A stretch of 60,504 nucleotides of DNA from Elusimicrobiota bacterium (lineage in GTDB: Bacteria > Elusimicrobiota > Elusimicrobia > JACQPE01): NCBI GenBank assembly GCA_016180815.1, contig JACPAN010000003.1, forward strand, positions 78,570 to 139,073, written 5' to 3'. The position numbers were made by a program, and so were the translations under genes. Below the pieces are notes generated by a model that searched no databases, had not been told where the DNA came from, and worked only from the letters and a program-made list of their open reading frames with translations. Shown piece by piece: positions 5,430-37,497 of the stretch (positions within the stretch are counted from its first letter, which is position 1; each line of letters begins with the position of its first letter).

Positions 5430-7520
5430 TTACTCTTTGACGTAGTCCAGGGCTTCGCAGGTGGCGCGGATGAGGCGGCCGTCCAATTTGATGGTGCGCG
5501 GCACCAGCCCCCCTTTGGTTCCCTGCGCCGAATTAAGGCTTAATTCCCGGTAAAAATCCATGAACTCTAGGCGTAGATGCGGTCCTTTTGCGCGCACGGA
5601 GTAGTCGTTCATGATTTTCCAGCGCAAGCGGCTGTGTTTTTCTTTGTTCAGCCACGAGTGGCGGGCGAAAAATTCTTGAAGAGCGGACTCAAATTCAGCT
5701 AAAAATTCCCTGCTTTGGGGTAAATTAGCGGCGACATCCTCGCTGTTTAAGGGCGTCATCATTCCGGGCGGCCAATACAAAACTTTGATCTGCCCGCTGT
5801 CTTTGGGCAGGCTCAGCGCCATTTTAACGCGCAGGGCCTGTTTGTTATTGGCCGCGAATTCGCATCGAAACTGTCCGGCGAATCCATCCTGGGCCGTCGC
5901 GATTTGACGCGTGAAGATTTCCGCGGGCCGGGGTTTGAATTTTTTATCCAGCATCGGCTCAAGAACAGCGATATGGGAGAGAAGCCGCACGCTTTTTTTG
6001 CGGCTTTTGTTCATTTCGAATTTGGCTGAGAAATAGGAAAGCCAGGCTTCCCGGTCTTTGCCTCCTTTGCTTTGGAGTTGGCTCAAGTGCAGCATGATTT
6101 CAGGCTCATGGCTGTCTTGGGCGGTGCGCTCAAGGATTTCAAGCGCTTCCTTCGTGCGGCCCATTTTAAAAAGCACCCAAGCCATGCTGTCTTGATAGGA
6201 CGGATTTTTGGGGTCTGCTTGGACCGCTTTGGCGACCAACCGATGGGCTTCATCCAAGTTTTTGCCCATCTCAGCCCAGGTGAATCCCAGGGCATTCGAA
6301 AAAACCGGGTCATCCGGCATGCGGTAGTAAAGATCGTTTAAGACGCTCTCCATGCACGCGTAATCCTCGAGCTCCCCGCAGATCAAGGCATAGGCATAAG
6401 CCATTTCCTGCCAGTCGGGTTTTTTCTTATAGAGCTCGGCCAGGGTATTCTTGGCTTTGGCGTATTCGCCCAGGTCTTCGTAGCCTAAAGCCAAAAAATA
6501 AGCGATATCGTGATTGTCCGGGAACAGTTTTTGCCGTTCCTCTAAAACGCCGACCGCGGCCCGAAGATTATCCAGATGAAGCAGGTAAAAGCTTTCTTTC
6601 AGCGCGAAGACGGCTTCTCGTCGGGCGATTCCGGGGTGTTCGTGCAGCACGGCCAGCGCCTCATCCCAGGCCTCGGTTTTCTCCAGCATATCGAGCAACA
6701 GGCCCATGGCCTGGATATTATCCGGTTCCTGCTCTAAAACCTCCATCAGACAGCTGCGTTTGCTCTCCTCGTCCTCTTGAACGGCGCAGAGTTTCAGGCG
6801 TAACGGGCTATTTTGCGGGTCTTCGCTCAACGCGCGGTTGAGGTAACCCCAAAGTTCGTCGAGTTTCCCGAATTTTTTATAGGCGTTGATCATGCCGTCG
6901 ACGGTTTCCGCGTCATCGGGGTCCTCTTCAAAGGCCCGGCGGTAGCTGTGCATGGATTCCGGGTTGTTTGATTCCATTTCGTAGTAGCCTTTGATTTTGA
7001 GGAGGTCGGCGTTGGGCGGGGAAACGTTCAGATAGGAGTCAAGGTATTGCAGCGCGTTGCGCCTGTCATCGAGTGAAGCGTAAAGGGAAATCAGGCCCAG
7101 AAGAATGTTGGGGTCCTGGGGTTTGAGCGCTCTGGCTTCCAAGAGAGCCCGCAACGCCTCTTTGGTGCGGCCCATGGCTTGGAGCACCTGGGCTTCAAGA
7201 TAGAGGCTTGAGGCGTCTCTGGGTTTTATTTGCCGGGCGATTTGGGAATAAACCCTGGCGATTTCGATTTGGCGCAAGTCCAGGGCCACTTCCACGATTT
7301 CTTCAAGCAATTCGTAGGCCATGGGATTGGTCTGATAGGCCAGAATGAGCTCGGTCAGGGCTTTTTCGGGCTCGTCGGAGCGCTGATAAAGCATGTATTT
7401 AAGGTAGTGGTGCATGGAAATGCGCGGGAACGGCTCCTCCTCTTGGATGGCAGAGGATGCGACCCAGGCAAACCGGCTGCCGGCGGCAAGGAAAAAGGTG
7501 ATGATCAGTAGTCGACGCAT
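5430..7520 (-). CDS. secreted TPR-repeat protein
   Basis: 696 residues with an N-terminal signal peptide (LLIITFFLAAGSRFAWVASS). Most of residues 30-500 are tandem TPR units with the usual small and aromatic residue pattern (for example SLYLEAQVLQAMGRTKEALR, DNIQAMGLLLDMLEKTEAWD). The C-terminal 200 residues (about 500-696) are mixed alpha/beta without a motif I recognise. TPR proteins of this size usually scaffold envelope complexes; no enzymatic role is visible. It lies 41 bases upstream of pgi on the same strand. No clear promoter box at leaderless spacing is present. Confidence 0.8.
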   Translation of the reverse strand: MRRLLIITFFLAAGSRFAWVASSAIQEEEPFPRISMHHYLKYMLYQRSDEPEKALTELILAYQTNPMAYELLEEIVEVALDLRQIEIARVYSQIARQIKPRDASSLYLEAQVLQAMGRTKEALRALLEARALKPQDPNILLGLISLYASLDDRRNALQYLDSYLNVSPPNADLLKIKGYYEMESNNPESMHSYRRAFEEDPDDAETVDGMINAYKKFGKLDELWGYLNRALSEDPQNSPLRLKLCAVQEDEESKRSCLMEVLEQEPDNIQAMGLLLDMLEKTEAWDEALAVLHEHPGIARREAVFALKESFYLLHLDNLRAAVGVLEERQKLFPDNHDIAYFLALGYEDLGEYAKAKNTLAELYKKKPDWQEMAYAYALICGELEDYACMESVLNDLYYRMPDDPVFSNALGFTWAEMGKNLDEAHRLVAKAVQADPKNPSYQDSMAWVLFKMGRTKEALEILERTAQDSHEPEIMLHLSQLQSKGGKDREAWLSYFSAKFEMNKSRKKSVRLLSHIAVLEPMLDKKFKPRPAEIFTRQIATAQDGFAGQFRCEFAANNKQALRVKMALSLPKDSGQIKVLYWPPGMMTPLNSEDVAANLPQSREFLAEFESALQEFFARHSWLNKEKHSRLRWKIMNDYSVRAKGPHLRLEFMDFYRELSLNSAQGTKGGLVPRTIKLDGRLIRATCEALDYVKE

Positions 7521-27500: not shown

Positions 27501-29023
27501 TGCATACCAAAGAATTCGACATCGTGGTCGTGGGTTCCGGCGCCGGGGGCGGCGCCGTGGCCAAGGAATTGGCTCCCCTGGCGGCCCATGGAATGAAAAT
27601 CGCGGTTTTGGAATGGGGCCCAAAATTCCGGGAAGCGGATTACACGGGCCGGGAAGTGGAAATGGCCAACCGTCTTTATTTTGACGGCGGCGGTTTTTTA
27701 ACCAAGGATCGCAATATGACGCTCGCCTTTGCCCGCGCTTACGGGGGTTCGACCGTGGTTTACACCGGCACCTCGCTGGTGATCCCCAAGGAAACGCTCG
27801 GGCGATGGGGCGTTCCCGGATTATCCTGGGATGATTTGAGCAGGCGTTCCCAAAAATATAAAGAAGAAAATAACGTTCATTTGCTTGAACCTGATTTGAT
27901 TAATGACAATAACCGTTTGTTTTATGAGGGCTGCCGGCAATTGGGCTACCAGGTCGAACAATTTCCGTTGAATTTGAAAGGTTGTCAGGGTTCGGGCATG
28001 TGCAATATGGGCTGCCCGAATGCGGCCAAACAGGGCACTCATCGCGTCCAGCTCCCGGCCGCGGAAAAACAAGGCGTTCAGGTGATCACCCGCTGCGAGG
28101 TCAAGCGCATCGATATGGAAACCCGCGCGCTTGAGGCCGTCGTCCACCCCCAAGAAAGCGTGGGGGAGCCCTCAAAATGGGCGCCGGGCCGATATCAAAT
28201 TAAGGCCAAAATCGTTGTTGTTGCCGCCGGGGCGGTCAACAGCCCGGCTTTACTGTTGCGATCGGGGTTGGGGGGCAGGCTGCCGGCTTTGGGGCGCTAT
28301 TGGACATGCCACCCGGCTTTGATTTTGGTCGCTCAGCATGACCGGTCCATTACTAACTATTACGGTCATCCTAAAAGCTACTACTGCGATGAATTCGTCG
28401 ACCCCGACAAGTTTTTGCTGGAAACCTGCATGTACTTTCCCTTTGTCACAGCCAAGAATCTGGCGGGTTTCGGGCCCGAACACGCGTCCATGATGAAGCG
28501 GATGGACCGATTGCAAATGATTCTTGTTCTGGCGTTAGATGAGGCGCTGGCTCAAAACCGCGTCACGATCGATCATGAGGGCAATCCGGTGGTTGATTAC
28601 CGCATCGGGGATCAAACCATCGATTCGTTCGTCGCTTCCATGCGCGCCTCGGCCAAGATTTTCTTCGCCGCCGGCGCCCGGCGCGTGCATGCTCCGGCCG
28701 CCAAGAAGTTTTTTATCGAGGCCGAAGAAAAAAATCAGATCGACGCTCTCATCACCCGTGATGATTTCAAGCTGGGCAAGGTTTCCATTTCCGCCGCGCA
28801 TTTGATGGGCGGCTGCCGTATGGGAACGAATGCCCAAGATTCGGTGACCGATGTTTGGGGCCAGGTGCATGGGCTGCCTTGGTTGTTTGCGGCGGATGCA
28901 AGCTTGTTCCCTAAATGCGCCCAGATCAATCCTTATTTGACGATTATGGCTTTGGCGGATCGAGCGGCTGAGGCCGTTCGCAGCAGGGTTGGGGAACTCA
29001 AGACCCAGCCCGTGGGGGTTTAA
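27500..29023 (+). CDS. GMC-family FAD oxidoreductase
   Basis: 507 residues. FAD-binding Rossmann motif DIVVVGSGAGGGAVAKELA at the N-terminus, GGSTVVYTGTSLVIPKE, and the cysteine-rich segment KGCQGSGMCNMGCPNAAKQG seen in the alcohol-oxidase/choline-dehydrogenase-like subgroup. The catalytic His is in AHLMGGCRMG and the C-terminal NPYLTIMALADRAAE closes the active site. It likely oxidises an alcohol to an aldehyde or ketone; substrate unknown. An upstream start at 27392 is rejected because 27500 gives the GMC N-terminus and a TGATG overlap. It overlaps the ThDP gene by one base (TAATG). Confidence 0.9.
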   Translation: MHTKEFDIVVVGSGAGGGAVAKELAPLAAHGMKIAVLEWGPKFREADYTGREVEMANRLYFDGGGFLTKDRNMTLAFARAYGGSTVVYTGTSLVIPKETLGRWGVPGLSWDDLSRRSQKYKEENNVHLLEPDLINDNNRLFYEGCRQLGYQVEQFPLNLKGCQGSGMCNMGCPNAAKQGTHRVQLPAAEKQGVQVITRCEVKRIDMETRALEAVVHPQESVGEPSKWAPGRYQIKAKIVVVAAGAVNSPALLLRSGLGGRLPALGRYWTCHPALILVAQHDRSITNYYGHPKSYYCDEFVDPDKFLLETCMYFPFVTAKNLAGFGPEHASMMKRMDRLQMILVLALDEALAQNRVTIDHEGNPVVDYRIGDQTIDSFVASMRASAKIFFAAGARRVHAPAAKKFFIEAEEKNQIDALITRDDFKLGKVSISAAHLMGGCRMGTNAQDSVTDVWGQVHGLPWLFAADASLFPKCAQINPYLTIMALADRAAEAVRSRVGELKTQPVGV

Positions 29024-31587: not shown

Positions 31588-31590
31588 TTG

Positions 31591-32844
31591 ATGCTGCGTG
31601 TTGTTAAATTAGGCGGTTCTACTTTAGCCACCCCTGAACAAGTTCGGGCTATGGCACAGGCCTTAGCCACCATGCACCGGGGCCAAGAGAAAGTTTTGGC
31701 CGTGGTCTCAGCCATGGGAAAAACCACGGACCATCTTTATGACGCTTTTATCCGCGCTGCCGGCGAAAGGGCGGATGCCCTGGATTTGGAACGTTTTTTA
31801 TCCCAAGGAGAATGGGCCTCGGCCCAACTTTTGGCCGCTGCGCTCAAGACTGCCGGTCAAGATTCGGTCGCCATCACCCCATGGGACAAAAATTGGCCGT
31901 TGGCCGTCGCTCTTCAAAATCACGCCGCTCCCCTGAAGGAAAAAGTCAATGAAATCAGGAATTTCAAACTGCTGACATCATCAAAGCGCATGGTTCACAA
32001 CGTGATCGGCGGGCATTTGAAAGCCGGACGCATTCCGGTTGTCTGCGGGTTCGTGGCTAAAAATCAATCGGGCGAAGTGGTGACCTTGGGCCGCGGCGGC
32101 AGCGATATTTCCGCTTTTTTGCTGGCGGATATCCTGAAAGCCGATGAAGTGATTTTGGTCAAAGACGTGGATGGTGTTTTGCCCTGGGACCCCAATGTGG
32201 CGGGCGTTCACCCCAAGGCCAAAGTCGCTCATCTTGAGGCCAAGGAGCTTTATTTTTTGTCTTCGGCGGGCTCGCGCGTGGTTCATCCTGGGGCTCTGCG
32301 CTATCTTAAAGCGGGCAAAAAGGCACGCGTGATCTCCTATAAAAGCGATGATTGGGCCAAGGGCGGAACCGAAATTTTGAAGACGCCGCACGCCGCCTTG
32401 CGTCTATTGGACATCCCGTTGGCGGCTTTGACGTTCATCGGCAGGGACTTGGTGTCGACGCCCGGCATTCTTTATGAGATCAGCCGGCCGCTGAAGGAAA
32501 CGGGCGTTTCGATTTATTCGATTACAGTCAGCGAATCCTTTCTTGCCGTTTACGTCCCTGAGAAAGACTGCGAAAAAGCCTATGGGTTCTTAGCTGAGGT
32601 GGCCGCGCGTATCCCTCAATTAAAGAGCTCGGCCGTTAAAAAGGGTTTGGTTAAGATCACCGTATCCAGCGAAGAATCGATTGAGGCTCCGGGCGCGATC
32701 GAGCGCTTGGTGCGTCCCATCGCCAGGGCGGGGTTGAACGTCTGGGAAATCGTCACCATTCATTCGGATATCATGCTGTTCGTTGAGAAACCCTTGGCTC
32801 AAAAAGTCGTTCGGTCGCTCAAGCGTTCCTTAAAAACAAAATGA
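31591..32844 (+). CDS. aspartate kinase, second copy
   Basis: 417 residues. Amino-acid kinase domain with VVKLGGSTLATPEQV, VVSAMGKTTDHLYDA, VTLGRGGSDISAFLLADIL and VKDVDGVLPWDPN, followed by two ACT-like regulatory regions (about 290-415). It phosphorylates aspartate at the head of the Lys/Thr/Met pathway; the motifs are more divergent than those of the copy at 36256-37497 (KLGGST instead of KFGGTS). Two isozymes often differ in feedback control. It ends the GMC/ThDP transcription unit; its TGA lies inside a 10-bp hairpin that acts as terminator for the opposite strand. Confidence 0.88.
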   Translation: MLRVVKLGGSTLATPEQVRAMAQALATMHRGQEKVLAVVSAMGKTTDHLYDAFIRAAGERADALDLERFLSQGEWASAQLLAAALKTAGQDSVAITPWDKNWPLAVALQNHAAPLKEKVNEIRNFKLLTSSKRMVHNVIGGHLKAGRIPVVCGFVAKNQSGEVVTLGRGGSDISAFLLADILKADEVILVKDVDGVLPWDPNVAGVHPKAKVAHLEAKELYFLSSAGSRVVHPGALRYLKAGKKARVISYKSDDWAKGGTEILKTPHAALRLLDIPLAALTFIGRDLVSTPGILYEISRPLKETGVSIYSITVSESFLAVYVPEKDCEKAYGFLAEVAARIPQLKSSAVKKGLVKITVSSEESIEAPGAIERLVRPIARAGLNVWEIVTIHSDIMLFVEKPLAQKVVRSLKRSLKTK

Positions 32845-32866
32845 AGGAAGCTTCCAGCTTCCTTCA
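32842..32866 (-). terminator. intrinsic terminator of the minus-strand ncRNA
   Basis: A perfect 10-bp stem (TGAAGGAAGC/GCTTCCTTCA) with a 5-nt loop. Read on the minus strand it is followed directly by TTTTGTTTTT, a good U-tract; on the plus strand only TTGCTTC follows. The stem includes the stop codon of the aspartate kinase gene, and the U-tract lies inside that gene on the other strand. Confidence 0.75.
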
Positions 32867-33085
32867 TTGCTTCGGCATAGTTTAAGCACAGCGGCCTTCG
32901 GTAGCCAGGCTGCCCTATCGCCCACCGGCGGCTCGCTCCGCTTGCGTGGGGGAAGAGTGCTTCGCGGTTCCCTTTTATTTTGGGGGTTAAGGGATCGCCG
33001 CTTTTGAGGCAACAGGGCCCATGGCTTCGCGTCCCCGACTTTCAAAGAACGGGTTTGCCGTTTCGAGGCGGTCGCTGAGGCAACC
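32842..33085 (-). ncRNA. GEMM-I-like (cyclic-dinucleotide) RNA with large inserted domain
   Basis: On the minus strand the GEMM-I core is recognisable: GGCAAACC (33059-33052), a short P2 helix (CCCG/CGGG), GGGGACGCGAAGCC (33036-33023), and a 3' half reading GGGCAGCCTGGCTACCG (32915-32899). P1 closes with CAGCG/CGCTG and GCCTCG/CGAAGGC (33077-33064 with 32900-32889). P3 is a 10-bp helix CCCTGTTGCC/GGCGATAGGG (33017-33008 with 32922-32913). Inside P3, instead of a small loop, are 85 nt that fold into their own hairpins (GCGG..TCCCTT/AAGGGA.CCGC; CCCAC/GTGGG). The RNA ends at the terminator above. A possible promoter is TTGACC-17-AATAGT around 33117-33089. No same-strand gene follows. The remaining bases of the 314-base gap show nothing further. 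Confidence 0.72.
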
Positions 33086-33158
33086 ATCAACTATTGACCG
33101 GAAACGAGGATTGGTCAAGGGGGGTCGCTGTTTCAATCCGGTGGAGCGGTGTTAAAAT

Positions 33159-34484
33159 TTAGGCCGTTTTTCGATTCTTTAGAGACTTGTTGAGAACCCG
33201 ACGTAAAATATCGATCGAACGGTCGATTTCTTTTTTGGTGACGGTCAGCGGAGGGCAGAACCTGATGGTATTGGGACCGCTGCCTAAGAGCAGGAGCCCG
33301 GCGTTGAAGCAGTTATCGACGATCAAATCCCTCAACGCTCCGGCCCGTTTCTTGGTGACGCGATCCGTCACCATCTCGACGCCGATCATCAGACCCAAGC
33401 CCCGCACGTCGCCGATGGGCTCGAACTCATCCTGGAGCGCCTTAAGATTCTGCATCAAGTAGCGGCCCTGGATTTGCGCGTTGTTGATCAATTCTGTTTC
33501 AAGCAGTTTGATGGTGACGAGCGCGGCTTCAGCCGCCACCGGATTGCCGCCGAATGTGGAGGCATGGGCTCCGGGCGGCCAGGTCATCAGGCTTTTTTTG
33601 GCGACCAGCGCGCCCAAGGGCAGGCCGGAGGCGATGCCTTTGGCCAGCGCGATCATATCCGGATTCACGCCGAAATGTTCCACCGCGAACATGCGTCCGG
33701 TTCTTCCCATGCCGGATTGGACTTCATCGGCTAATACAAGAATGCCGTACTTGCGGGCGATTTGTTGAACGCGGGCGAGCCATTCCGGCGGCGGCACCAC
33801 GTAGCCGCCTTCTCCTTGAACGGGTTCAACCGCAATGGCGGCCACCTCCTCGGGAGGGACCGTGGTCCGGAACATTTCATCTTCAATGTAATCCGCGCAC
33901 GCGATTTTGCAGGACGGGTATTTTAGATTCAGGGGGCATCGGTAGCAGTAGGCGTAGGGCGCGTGATTGGTTTGCGGCAGAAGCGGAGCAAAACCGCGCC
34001 GTTGAACGGCCTTCGAATTGGTCAAGGACAGCGCTCCGAAGGTGCGGCCGTGAAAAGCGCCGATAAAGGAAATAAAACGGGGCCGCCGCGTCGCGTAGCG
34101 GGCCAATTTCATGCCGGCTTCAATGGCCTCGGCGCCGGAATTGCCGAAGAAAACCGATCCGCGCTCTTTGCCCGGGAACAGTTCGGATAGTTTTTCGGCC
34201 AATTTGATTTGGGCCGGGTAATAGAAATCCGTACCGGACATATGGATGAGCTCTGCCGCTTGTTTTTGAACGGCGCGGACGACTTGCGGATGGCAGTGGC
34301 CGGTGGATACTGTGGCGATGCCGGCCGAAAAATCAAGGTACTCGCGGCCGTCCGCATCCCAGACGCGCGCGCCGCGTCCGCGCACGATGACCGCAGGGTA
34401 GCCGCGGGTATAGGAGGGGGAAATGACGCGACTATCCCTCGCGATCCATTGTTTGGCTTTTGGCCCTGCTTTAAATTTAGTCAT
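33159..34484 (-). CDS. class III PLP aminotransferase (or racemase-type relative)
   Basis: 441 residues. Fold-type I, class III: GNSGAEAIEAGMKLARYAT, FHGRTFGALSLTNSK, VQGEGGYVVPPPEWL, LADEVQSGMGRTGRMF and the PLP lysine in ALAKGIASGLPLGALV. The segment YCYRCPLNLKYPSC resembles archaeal/thermophile members annotated as acetylornithine or 4-aminobutyrate aminotransferases; some of those are ornithine aminotransferases or amino-acid racemases, so substrate stays open. It ends the hom-lysC operon, and the GEMM-like RNA lies directly downstream on the same strand. Confidence 0.88.
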   Translation of the reverse strand: MTKFKAGPKAKQWIARDSRVISPSYTRGYPAVIVRGRGARVWDADGREYLDFSAGIATVSTGHCHPQVVRAVQKQAAELIHMSGTDFYYPAQIKLAEKLSELFPGKERGSVFFGNSGAEAIEAGMKLARYATRRPRFISFIGAFHGRTFGALSLTNSKAVQRRGFAPLLPQTNHAPYAYCYRCPLNLKYPSCKIACADYIEDEMFRTTVPPEEVAAIAVEPVQGEGGYVVPPPEWLARVQQIARKYGILVLADEVQSGMGRTGRMFAVEHFGVNPDMIALAKGIASGLPLGALVAKKSLMTWPPGAHASTFGGNPVAAEAALVTIKLLETELINNAQIQGRYLMQNLKALQDEFEPIGDVRGLGLMIGVEMVTDRVTKKRAGALRDLIVDNCFNAGLLLLGSGPNTIRFCPPLTVTKKEIDRSIDILRRVLNKSLKNRKTA

Positions 34485-35285: not shown

Positions 35286-36284
35286 TTAAAAACGAAGCAG
35301 GCATTGGGCCGTGAACGCGTCGTTGTCGATTTGTTTTTTTGGGTCTTCTTCGCGTCCGGCGTCGTATTGCACGCTCAGGCGGAAATCGTTGGAGAAGTAA
35401 TAATGGATCGTGGCGCGCGTCGTCATTTGCCGGTCGTTCCTTGTCTGCCGGTCCGGATCATAGGATTCGAAACGGACGACGGGCCGCAAGCGCTGCAGCC
35501 ATTCGAGCTTGCGATAGGCCTCCGGCGAAAAAATACCCAAAGCCGCGTCCATTTGGATGAACCAGCCGTCGCTGACTAAGGTTCCGTCCTGGCCCCTGTG
35601 GTATTCGGCGCGCAGGTTTTGGCCGGGCGGTCCCAGGCGCAGTTCGCCGCCGAAGCGATTGCGGAGCACGGGTCCCGCCGAATCCGCCTGATCGCCCAGA
35701 TAAGCGTAGCCGCCCAGGGCGAATTCCCGCCATTCGCCGCCCAAGCGCCCGGCGAACGATTTTTTACCCGTATCATCCGCGGCATTAGGGCCGGCGCCGT
35801 TGACGGCAGCGGCTCCCAAGTGGAACATTTTCCAGCGGCCTTTGATTTTGGCGCCGATATCCGTTCCTTCGGGCTCCCGGTTAAACAGGCGCCGGGCGAA
35901 AAGAGCCGGTTCGGAAAAATCAAGATCAGGCAGAGCAGCCGTAATTTCACGGCTGACCGGAATGGAGATTTGTCCGGCTTCGATATCCCAGCGGGGGAAA
36001 ACCTCATACTCTAAATAGGCGTGGCGCAGCCCTTCTTGTCGGCTGTGCAATTTATTCAACACCAAGCGGGCACGCATGGCGACTTTGGGGTGCGGCTTGT
36101 AGAGGGCATGAAGTAAGGTTTCGCCGACGGTGAAAGCATCCACGGCTCCAGTCGACGTGTCCGCCGTGTAACGGACGATCAAATGCCCGCCCCAATGAAG
36201 CGTGCCGGTTGAAATTTCTTGAGCCGAGGCGGCGCCGGCGAAGAGGCCCGCCGAGCTAAGAACGGCGGCCCAAATGAAACGCAT
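35286..36284 (-). CDS. porin-like outer-membrane protein
   Basis: 332 residues. Signal peptide (MRFIWAAVLSSAGLFAGAASAQ), then repeated amphipathic strands characteristic of phosphate-selective porin O/P-type proteins (FPRWDIEAGQISIPVSREI, GTDIGAKIKGRWKMFHLGAA, RFGGELRLGPPGQNLRAEYH) and a C-terminal aromatic (CLLRF). The initiation codon lies inside the 3' end of lysC (29-base overlap), so it belongs to the same transcript. Linking a porin to aspartate-family genes is unusual; substrate unknown. Confidence 0.78.
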   Translation of the reverse strand: MRFIWAAVLSSAGLFAGAASAQEISTGTLHWGGHLIVRYTADTSTGAVDAFTVGETLLHALYKPHPKVAMRARLVLNKLHSRQEGLRHAYLEYEVFPRWDIEAGQISIPVSREITAALPDLDFSEPALFARRLFNREPEGTDIGAKIKGRWKMFHLGAAAVNGAGPNAADDTGKKSFAGRLGGEWREFALGGYAYLGDQADSAGPVLRNRFGGELRLGPPGQNLRAEYHRGQDGTLVSDGWFIQMDAALGIFSPEAYRKLEWLQRLRPVVRFESYDPDRQTRNDRQMTTRATIHYYFSNDFRLSVQYDAGREEDPKKQIDNDAFTAQCLLRF

Positions 36285-37497
36285 CGTGAAGCGCGCGCAA
36301 TGCCTCGGCCGCTTGATTGGCGTTGATGAGGCAGGCGATTTTAATGTCGGAATTGGCGATCATCTGAATGTTGATTTTGTGATCGGCCAGCGTTTGAAAA
36401 ACTTTGGCGGCCAGGATGCTTTCGTTGCGCAGCCCGGTGCCCACGACCGAAACTTTGGCGCAGGATTCTTCAATCGCCACATGTTCGGCCCCCAGCATCC
36501 GGCAGGCGCGTTCCATGGCTTTGTGCGCTCTGGGGGCCACGCCGCGATTGACGGTGATGGAAATATCGTTGACGCCTTTTTCTCTGGCCGCGGATTGAAC
36601 GATCATATCCACCGGGATATTCTCTTTAGCCAACTCGGCGAAGAGTTGGGCGGCCGCGCCCGGACGGTCCGGGACATTCTTGACGGTTAGTTTGGTCAGG
36701 TTCCGGTCCAGGGCCACGCCCGATACTTGGGCTTCTTCCATGCCCCTGCGTTTATTTTTGATATCCATAATCCAGGTTCCCTCCTCATTGGTAAACGAGC
36801 ATTTGACGTGAATCGGAACGCCGAAGCGTTTGGCCACCTCGATGGAGCGCGGCTGCATCACCTGGGCCCCGGCCGAGGCCAGCTCAAGCATGGCGTCGTA
36901 GGAAATCCGGTGAATTTTTTTGGCGGTCGGCACCAGGCGCGGGTCCGCGGTATAGACGCCTTCGACGTCCGTATAAATCTCACACGCTTCGGCGTCAAAC
37001 GCCGAGGCCAGGGCCACGGCCGTCAAATCCGACCCGCCGCGGCCGAGCGTGGTGATTTCCCCGTGGGGGTTGATCCCTTGAAAACCCGCGACCACGACCG
37101 CCTTATTTTCGCTTAATGCCCTGTTGATTTTTTCGGGTTGAATGCGGACGATTTTGGCCATGGTGTGCGTATTGGTGGCTAGGATGCCGGCTTGAGGGCC
37201 GGTCAGCGATACGGCGTCGACGCCCCGCGCCTTCAAGGCCATGGCGAACAGCGCGATGCCGACTTGTTCGCCGGTGGCCAAGAGCATATCCATTTCTCTG
37301 GAATCGGGATCGCGGGTCACGCTTTTGGCCAGATCGATCAATTCATCGGTCATTTCTCCCGGAGCGGAGACGACCACGATGACGCGCCGGCCGTGTTTTT
37401 TGGCGCGGGCGACTTTGGCGGCGGAGCTTAAAATTCGTTCGGGATTGGCGACCGAAGTGCCGCCGAATTTCATGACGAGAAGTTTTTTAGAGCTCAT
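36256..37497 (-). CDS. lysC: aspartate kinase
   Basis: 413 residues. Canonical LysC: LVMKFGGTSVANPERI, VVVVSAPGEMTDEL, TLGRGGSDLTAVALA, YTDVEGVYTADPRLV and two C-terminal ACT domains (VKNVPDRPGAAAQLFAEL, VSVVGTGLRNESILAAKVF). First step of the aspartate pathway. It follows the ACT-domain gene with a 4-base overlap and hom before that, so hom-ACT-lysC is one coupled unit. Confidence 0.95.
   Translation of the reverse strand: MSSKKLLVMKFGGTSVANPERILSSAAKVARAKKHGRRVIVVVSAPGEMTDELIDLAKSVTRDPDSREMDMLLATGEQVGIALFAMALKARGVDAVSLTGPQAGILATNTHTMAKIVRIQPEKINRALSENKAVVVAGFQGINPHGEITTLGRGGSDLTAVALASAFDAEACEIYTDVEGVYTADPRLVPTAKKIHRISYDAMLELASAGAQVMQPRSIEVAKRFGVPIHVKCSFTNEEGTWIMDIKNKRRGMEEAQVSGVALDRNLTKLTVKNVPDRPGAAAQLFAELAKENIPVDMIVQSAAREKGVNDISITVNRGVAPRAHKAMERACRMLGAEHVAIEESCAKVSVVGTGLRNESILAAKVFQTLADHKINIQMIANSDIKIACLINANQAAEALRALHDAFHLGRRS

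Follow-up and report, generated by a model that had tools for sequence, protein, structure and literature searches.

The minus strand of the window, by which we mean the whole stretch of DNA analysed here (60,504 nucleotides of an Elusimicrobiota genome), carries at positions 33068-32896 a true c-di-GMP-I-type riboswitch aptamer, in the rare but known GGC variant with G20, G47 and C92. The sensor itself is thus known, and its lone position is the unexpected part. Judging from the sequence and its relatives, this RNA is, on balance, probably an orphaned riboswitch that is still under selection and survives as a free-standing RNA of about 240 nt that binds a ligand.

Identification of the aptamer

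By direct reading of the sequence, all core motifs of a GEMM-I-type aptamer were found in place and the aptamer to be complete. In a 601-base cmscan search, the c-di-GMP-I-GGC model (RF03167) aligned over its full length (1-80 of 80) to 33068-32896 on the minus strand with 45.9 bits and an E-value of 1.2e-9. The original prediction of a GEMM-I-type aptamer is supported. The score falls under the RF03167 gathering cut-off of 59 bits, probably because the insert in P3 costs score, and a scan of the whole window at the gathering threshold listed zero Rfam matches. The features of the locus are given below; G000 designates the genome of the window and G001-G003 the other examined genomes of its family.

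33159-34484, minus strand: upstream gene, class-III aminotransferase (ORF; Pfam PF00202, E 5e-119)
33090-33118, minus strand: promoter-like site TTGACC-17-AATAGT, the sole such site where 0.2 would be expected across the 421 bases scanned, also present in G001 and G002
33070-33085, minus strand: 5' hairpin GGUUGCCUCAGCGACC ahead of the aptamer (minimum-energy fold), corresponding to the GGTTG...GTGACCG switch segments of G001 and G002
32896-33068, minus strand: c-di-GMP-I-GGC aptamer (RF03167), 173 nt with insert (cmscan)
33023-33059, minus strand: P2 region GGCAAACCCG-UUCUUUGAAAGU-CGGGGACGCGAAGCC, with G47 in GACGCG and no GNRA tetraloop (direct reading, loop survey, pattern match)
33008-33020, minus strand: 5' strand of P3, GGGCCCTGTTGCC (fold)
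32924-33007, minus strand: P3 insert, 84 nt, species-specific (cmscan alignment, repeat search, comparison with G003, shuffle test)
32908-32922, minus strand: 3' strand of P3, GGCGATAGGGC-AG-CC, with the AG bulge containing G83 (fold, cmscan alignment)
32840-32868, minus strand: intrinsic terminator with a 13-pair stem and the tail TTGTTTTT (terminator scan; pairing probability near 1 for most pairs)
31588-32844, plus strand: convergent aspartokinase-like gene (ORF; AA_kinase, PF00696, plus ACT domains)

The predicted transcript was folded without constraints, and its minimum-energy fold contained the 5' hairpin, P1, P2, the extended P3 and the terminator, and the leader as a whole was more stable than shuffled versions of it (z -2.5). 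In this fold, P1 (GCCUCG/CGAAGGC) is short, with about six pairs, instead of the long helix that had been proposed. P3 consists of GG/CC, the conserved AG bulge holding G83 and then 11 pairs, GCCCUGUUGCC/GGCGAUAGGGC, and so is longer than the 10 bp claimed. Both partners of the interhelical pair C44-G83 were at the expected positions in the cmscan alignment. The loop survey gave UUCUUUGAAAGU as the P2 loop of the window copy, which is not GNRA; a GNRA tetraloop on P2 is a consensus feature of RF03167, not a defining one.

Homologues lacking compensatory changes in the helices had been named by the original prediction as evidence against the aptamer. Over 96 copies from the class, P2 and P3 covary: 95.6% of the cells were paired, with a score of 0.594 compared to 0.187 for shuffled and at most 0.128 for slid controls, in an alignment that was built with a model fitted to this structure and leans in its favour. 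The window row contributes nothing to the P3 counts, as our own covariance model (R1) misplaced the 3' half of this copy with its long insert. For P1, the sequences offer a single compensatory change, from G-C to A-U in G003.

The pocket base at position 47

In the motif GACGCG, a G takes the place of the usual A at pocket position 47 (sequence and cmscan alignment), and the pocket of the window aptamer therefore reads G20, G47 and C92. The model consensus is GACGCG in RF03167 versus GACGCA in RF01051; the G47 change is therefore already catalogued as the mark of c-di-GMP-I-GGC, and this part is not new. We read the name "GGC" as referring to G20/G47/C92. The window aptamer agrees with RF03167 in the full-length match, these three bases, the AG bulge in P3 and the retained C44 and G83, but differs from it in the missing tetraloop on P2, the additional 84 nt in P3, the geneless downstream region and the score below the gathering cut-off. 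With c-di-GMP-I (GEMM-I, RF01051), for example Vc2 and Vc1 of Vibrio cholerae, it has in common the P1-P2-P3 architecture and the pocket bases 20 and 92, whereas it has G for A47 and no GNRA tetraloop. The c-AMP-GMP (3',3'-cGAMP) riboswitches, GEMM-Ib, use the same scaffold with A at position 20, where the window has G.

The pocket positions are numbered as in Vc2. The pocket bases of the Vc2 aptamer are G20, A47 and C92 (PMC3764141; PMC4744006). In Vc1, a change of the A47 equivalent to U abolished the binding of c-di-GMP (PMC4744006), so position 47 matters. As the hallmark of a catalogued variant, the G in GACGCG may bear on ligand choice, as had been suggested. The GGC variant has been described through models, and in the literature searched we found no paper establishing its ligand. 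The predicted ligand, around which the window aptamer would most likely fold, is a cyclic dinucleotide, either c-di-GMP or a closely related one. With seven GGDEF matches in its genome, the bacterium probably makes c-di-GMP.

The insert in P3

The proposed insertion of 85 nt between the P3 strands is real (84-85 nt), but the length of this arm varies freely in bacteria of the class. RF03167-like RNAs were detected in the genomes of 34 out of 60 relatives. One hundred class copies taken for a length survey had a median length of 82 nt, with 29 of at least 100 nt and a maximum of 143 nt; most measured 70 to 143 nt in total, and the window copy, with 173 nt, exceeds them all. The extra length lies mostly in P3 and, in a few copies, in P2. 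A long P3 as such is ordinary in this class.

The insert folds as three small hairpins at the end of P3, not two as had been predicted, and is not unusually stable (z -0.73; 45 of 200 shuffles were at least as stable). Its identity to the corresponding part of G003 is 41%, at the level of shuffled sequences (mean 48%). It had no second copy in the window genome or the three other family genomes, and no other Rfam family matched it. A mobile-element or repeat origin was dropped, as the insert is single-copy across all four genomes. Neither a separate structured domain (no Rfam match, same z) nor a tandem riboswitch or second aptamer (poor conservation between species in addition) was upheld. 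A kissing-loop contact that would join the P2 loop to the insert in place of the tetraloop-receptor contact, suggested by eye, was rejected, the duplex energies being no better than for shuffled inserts (combined p 0.68). These results suggest that the insert is a peripheral extension of an already variable arm; the second sensor, protein site or tandem module originally envisaged is not supported on present evidence.

G47 copies in the phylum

Among 341 genomes of the phylum, the G47-core pattern marked true aptamers in four only, all from one family (the window genome, G001, G002 and G003); the remaining pattern matches were not compatible with an aptamer. The four copies have total lengths of 114, 116, 117 and 173 nt, all with a long P3, and none has GNRA on P2, compared to most of the A47 copies in the loop survey. 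That G47 is confined to one family, and there invariably accompanied by a long P3 and a P2 lacking the GNRA tetraloop, had not been noted earlier. Class-wide, the correlation between P3 length and GNRA loss was not significant where both could be parsed. As the three traits are joined only in one lineage of four copies, a causal link between them is not required. The window genome (2.85 Mb in 39 contigs) contains three further clear RF03167 copies, each of which has A47 and a GNRA loop. Among named loci, the closest come from groundwater Elusimicrobia.

Genomic context of the window copy and its relatives

The aptamer begins about 90 nt past the stop codon of the aminotransferase gene. Downstream of it, more than 5 kb of the window are free of sense genes: the next four genes, from 32844 back to 27392, are antiparallel (aspartokinase-like, hydrolase, TPP enzyme and one more), and the first sense gene lies at 27066-26302. 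The original prediction had overlooked this gene-less position and the loss of the GNRA tetraloop. A place in the 5' leader of a regulated gene is typical of RF03167 but does not define the aptamer. The terminator overlaps the convergent aspartokinase-like gene at its 3' end. A weak antiterminator candidate of five pairs joins the 5' leader to the 5' arm of the terminator, forming with a probability of about 0.75 if the 3' arm is left out. The window contains a second aspartokinase-like gene (AA_kinase plus ACT) on the opposite strand within about 6 kb, at 36256-37497 (minus) compared to 31588-32844 (plus).

In G003 (loci L046/L131), the G47 RNA likewise lies behind a class-III aminotransferase gene, whose product is 75% identical to that of the window. 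The aptamer cores are 76% identical in the 5' part and 100% in the 3' part, compared to 40 and 52% for the flanks and 48% on average for shuffled sequences. The core has thus been kept while its surroundings were randomised, which speaks for a function without an operon. In G003 the convergent gene is at a distance of more than 600 nt and encodes an alpha/beta hydrolase, versus the aspartokinase-like gene of the window. About 131 nt behind the G003 aptamer there is a hydrophobic ORF of 36 codons (L131:3296-3406) with a good ribosome-binding site (AAAGGAAG before the ATG), possibly a small regulated gene or a gene fragment. The region L131:3225-3759 behind this riboswitch also has a 30-base direct repeat and, with a spacing of 450 nt, perfect inverted repeats of 22 bases, and looks like a small mobile element. 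Given the ORF and the inverted repeats, the G003 RNA may control something there or be disturbed by an insertion.

In G001 and G002, the genomes of loci L045 and L047 by matching positions, the G47 RNA is located upstream of a UPF0164 (PorV-like) outer-membrane gene, with an FG-GAP beta-propeller gene further downstream, and neither genome has a riboswitch after its aminotransferase gene. The promoter-like site has the same -35 start, 17-base spacing and AATnnT as in the window. Two 7-base segments 5' of the aptamer, one around GGTTG and the other GTGACCG, are each matched by an exact complement 3' of it (p about 0.02 per genome), as would be expected if P1 could give way to another pairing in a switch. 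Such segment pairs were found neither in the window nor in G003. The UPF0164 protein is 62% identical between G001 and G002; the best hits in G000 or G003 reach only 38%, so that it has no close counterpart there. In L047, a PIN-like ORF and a small antitoxin-like ORF flank a long near-perfect inverted repeat (5776-5855; a chance-like mir-22 match).

All four genomes have about 20-25 UPF0164/PorV-like outer-membrane protein matches each, and this large family is likely a target of c-di-GMP riboswitches in these bacteria. In the window genome, locus L134 combines an RF03167-like aptamer, a strong terminator and a second, partly degenerate RF01051-like copy (G000:C20:28553-28632 and 28875-28945), and this tandem pair precedes a UPF0164-like outer-membrane gene. 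The strong terminator of this A47 copy stands between aptamer and gene; aptamer plus terminator is therefore a normal arrangement, and at the window locus it is the gene that is absent.

Discussion

We rank a free-standing RNA first, followed by a recent relic, an antisense-acting riboswitch and a 3'-UTR element. This RNA belongs to a family-specific lineage that leads an operon for a UPF0164/PorV-like outer-membrane protein and a beta-propeller protein in two sister genera. In the window, its transcription probably starts at a promoter of its own and stops about 240 nt further on, at the strong intrinsic terminator; the RNA lacks the complementary segments by which the leader versions could switch. 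A riboswitch stranded in this way might act as a sensor, a sponge or an sRNA. This reading draws on the full-model RF03167 match, the P2/P3 covariation, the GGDEF matches and G47 orthologues in all four family genomes examined; on the place behind the aminotransferase common to the window and G003, with the core kept against random insert and flanks; and on the promoter-like site and terminator, the gene-less downstream region and the missing switch segments in both genomes. What counts against it is the score below the gathering cut-off, a position found in two genomes only, a G003 locus that is maybe not gene-less and possible switching through the weak antiterminator pairing. A more elaborate version, in which a free small RNA senses or buffers a cyclic dinucleotide, the P2-P3 contact has been rebuilt through loss of the tetraloop and enlargement of P3, and the G47 pocket perhaps prefers a ligand other than c-di-GMP, appears doubtful.

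The absence of a downstream gene and of switch segments, together with the lack of a close UPF0164 counterpart in G000 and G003, would also be seen in a decaying relic whose operon was lost too recently for the aptamer to have decayed. The common site behind the aminotransferase in the diverged G003, with an intact core in both genomes between randomised flanks, and the retained promoter-like site make a relic rather unlikely. The terminator coincides with the 3' end of the convergent aspartokinase-like gene, to which ligand-dependent read-through would yield an antisense RNA, and in a genome survey the c-di-GMP family was the most antisense-inclined of the riboswitch families, with 152 antisense versus 2,554 sense positions (PMC9943018). 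Yet G003 has a different convergent gene, and the 13-pair terminator stem forms with a probability near 1, and we regard an antisense action as improbable. Riboswitches known to act in antisense or in trans, such as the pocR antisense RNA and SreA of Listeria, resemble the window RNA in that the aptamer is not ahead of a sense gene, but the window RNA has no conserved antisense target and its trans role is only putative. A 3'-UTR element through which a ligand determines where the aminotransferase mRNA ends or how stable it is would suit the short distance to the stop codon and the same preceding gene in G003; it is very improbable given the separate promoter-like site, common to leader versions without an adjacent aminotransferase gene, and the aminotransferase genes of G001 and G002 that have no riboswitch behind them.

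The RNA of the window belongs to a small natural series within one family, in which G47, a long P3 and a P2 without the tetraloop occur together alongside ordinary A47 copies in the same genomes. This series allows a direct test of whether G47 alters the ligand, and of whether an aptamer can persist as a free RNA once its gene is gone.
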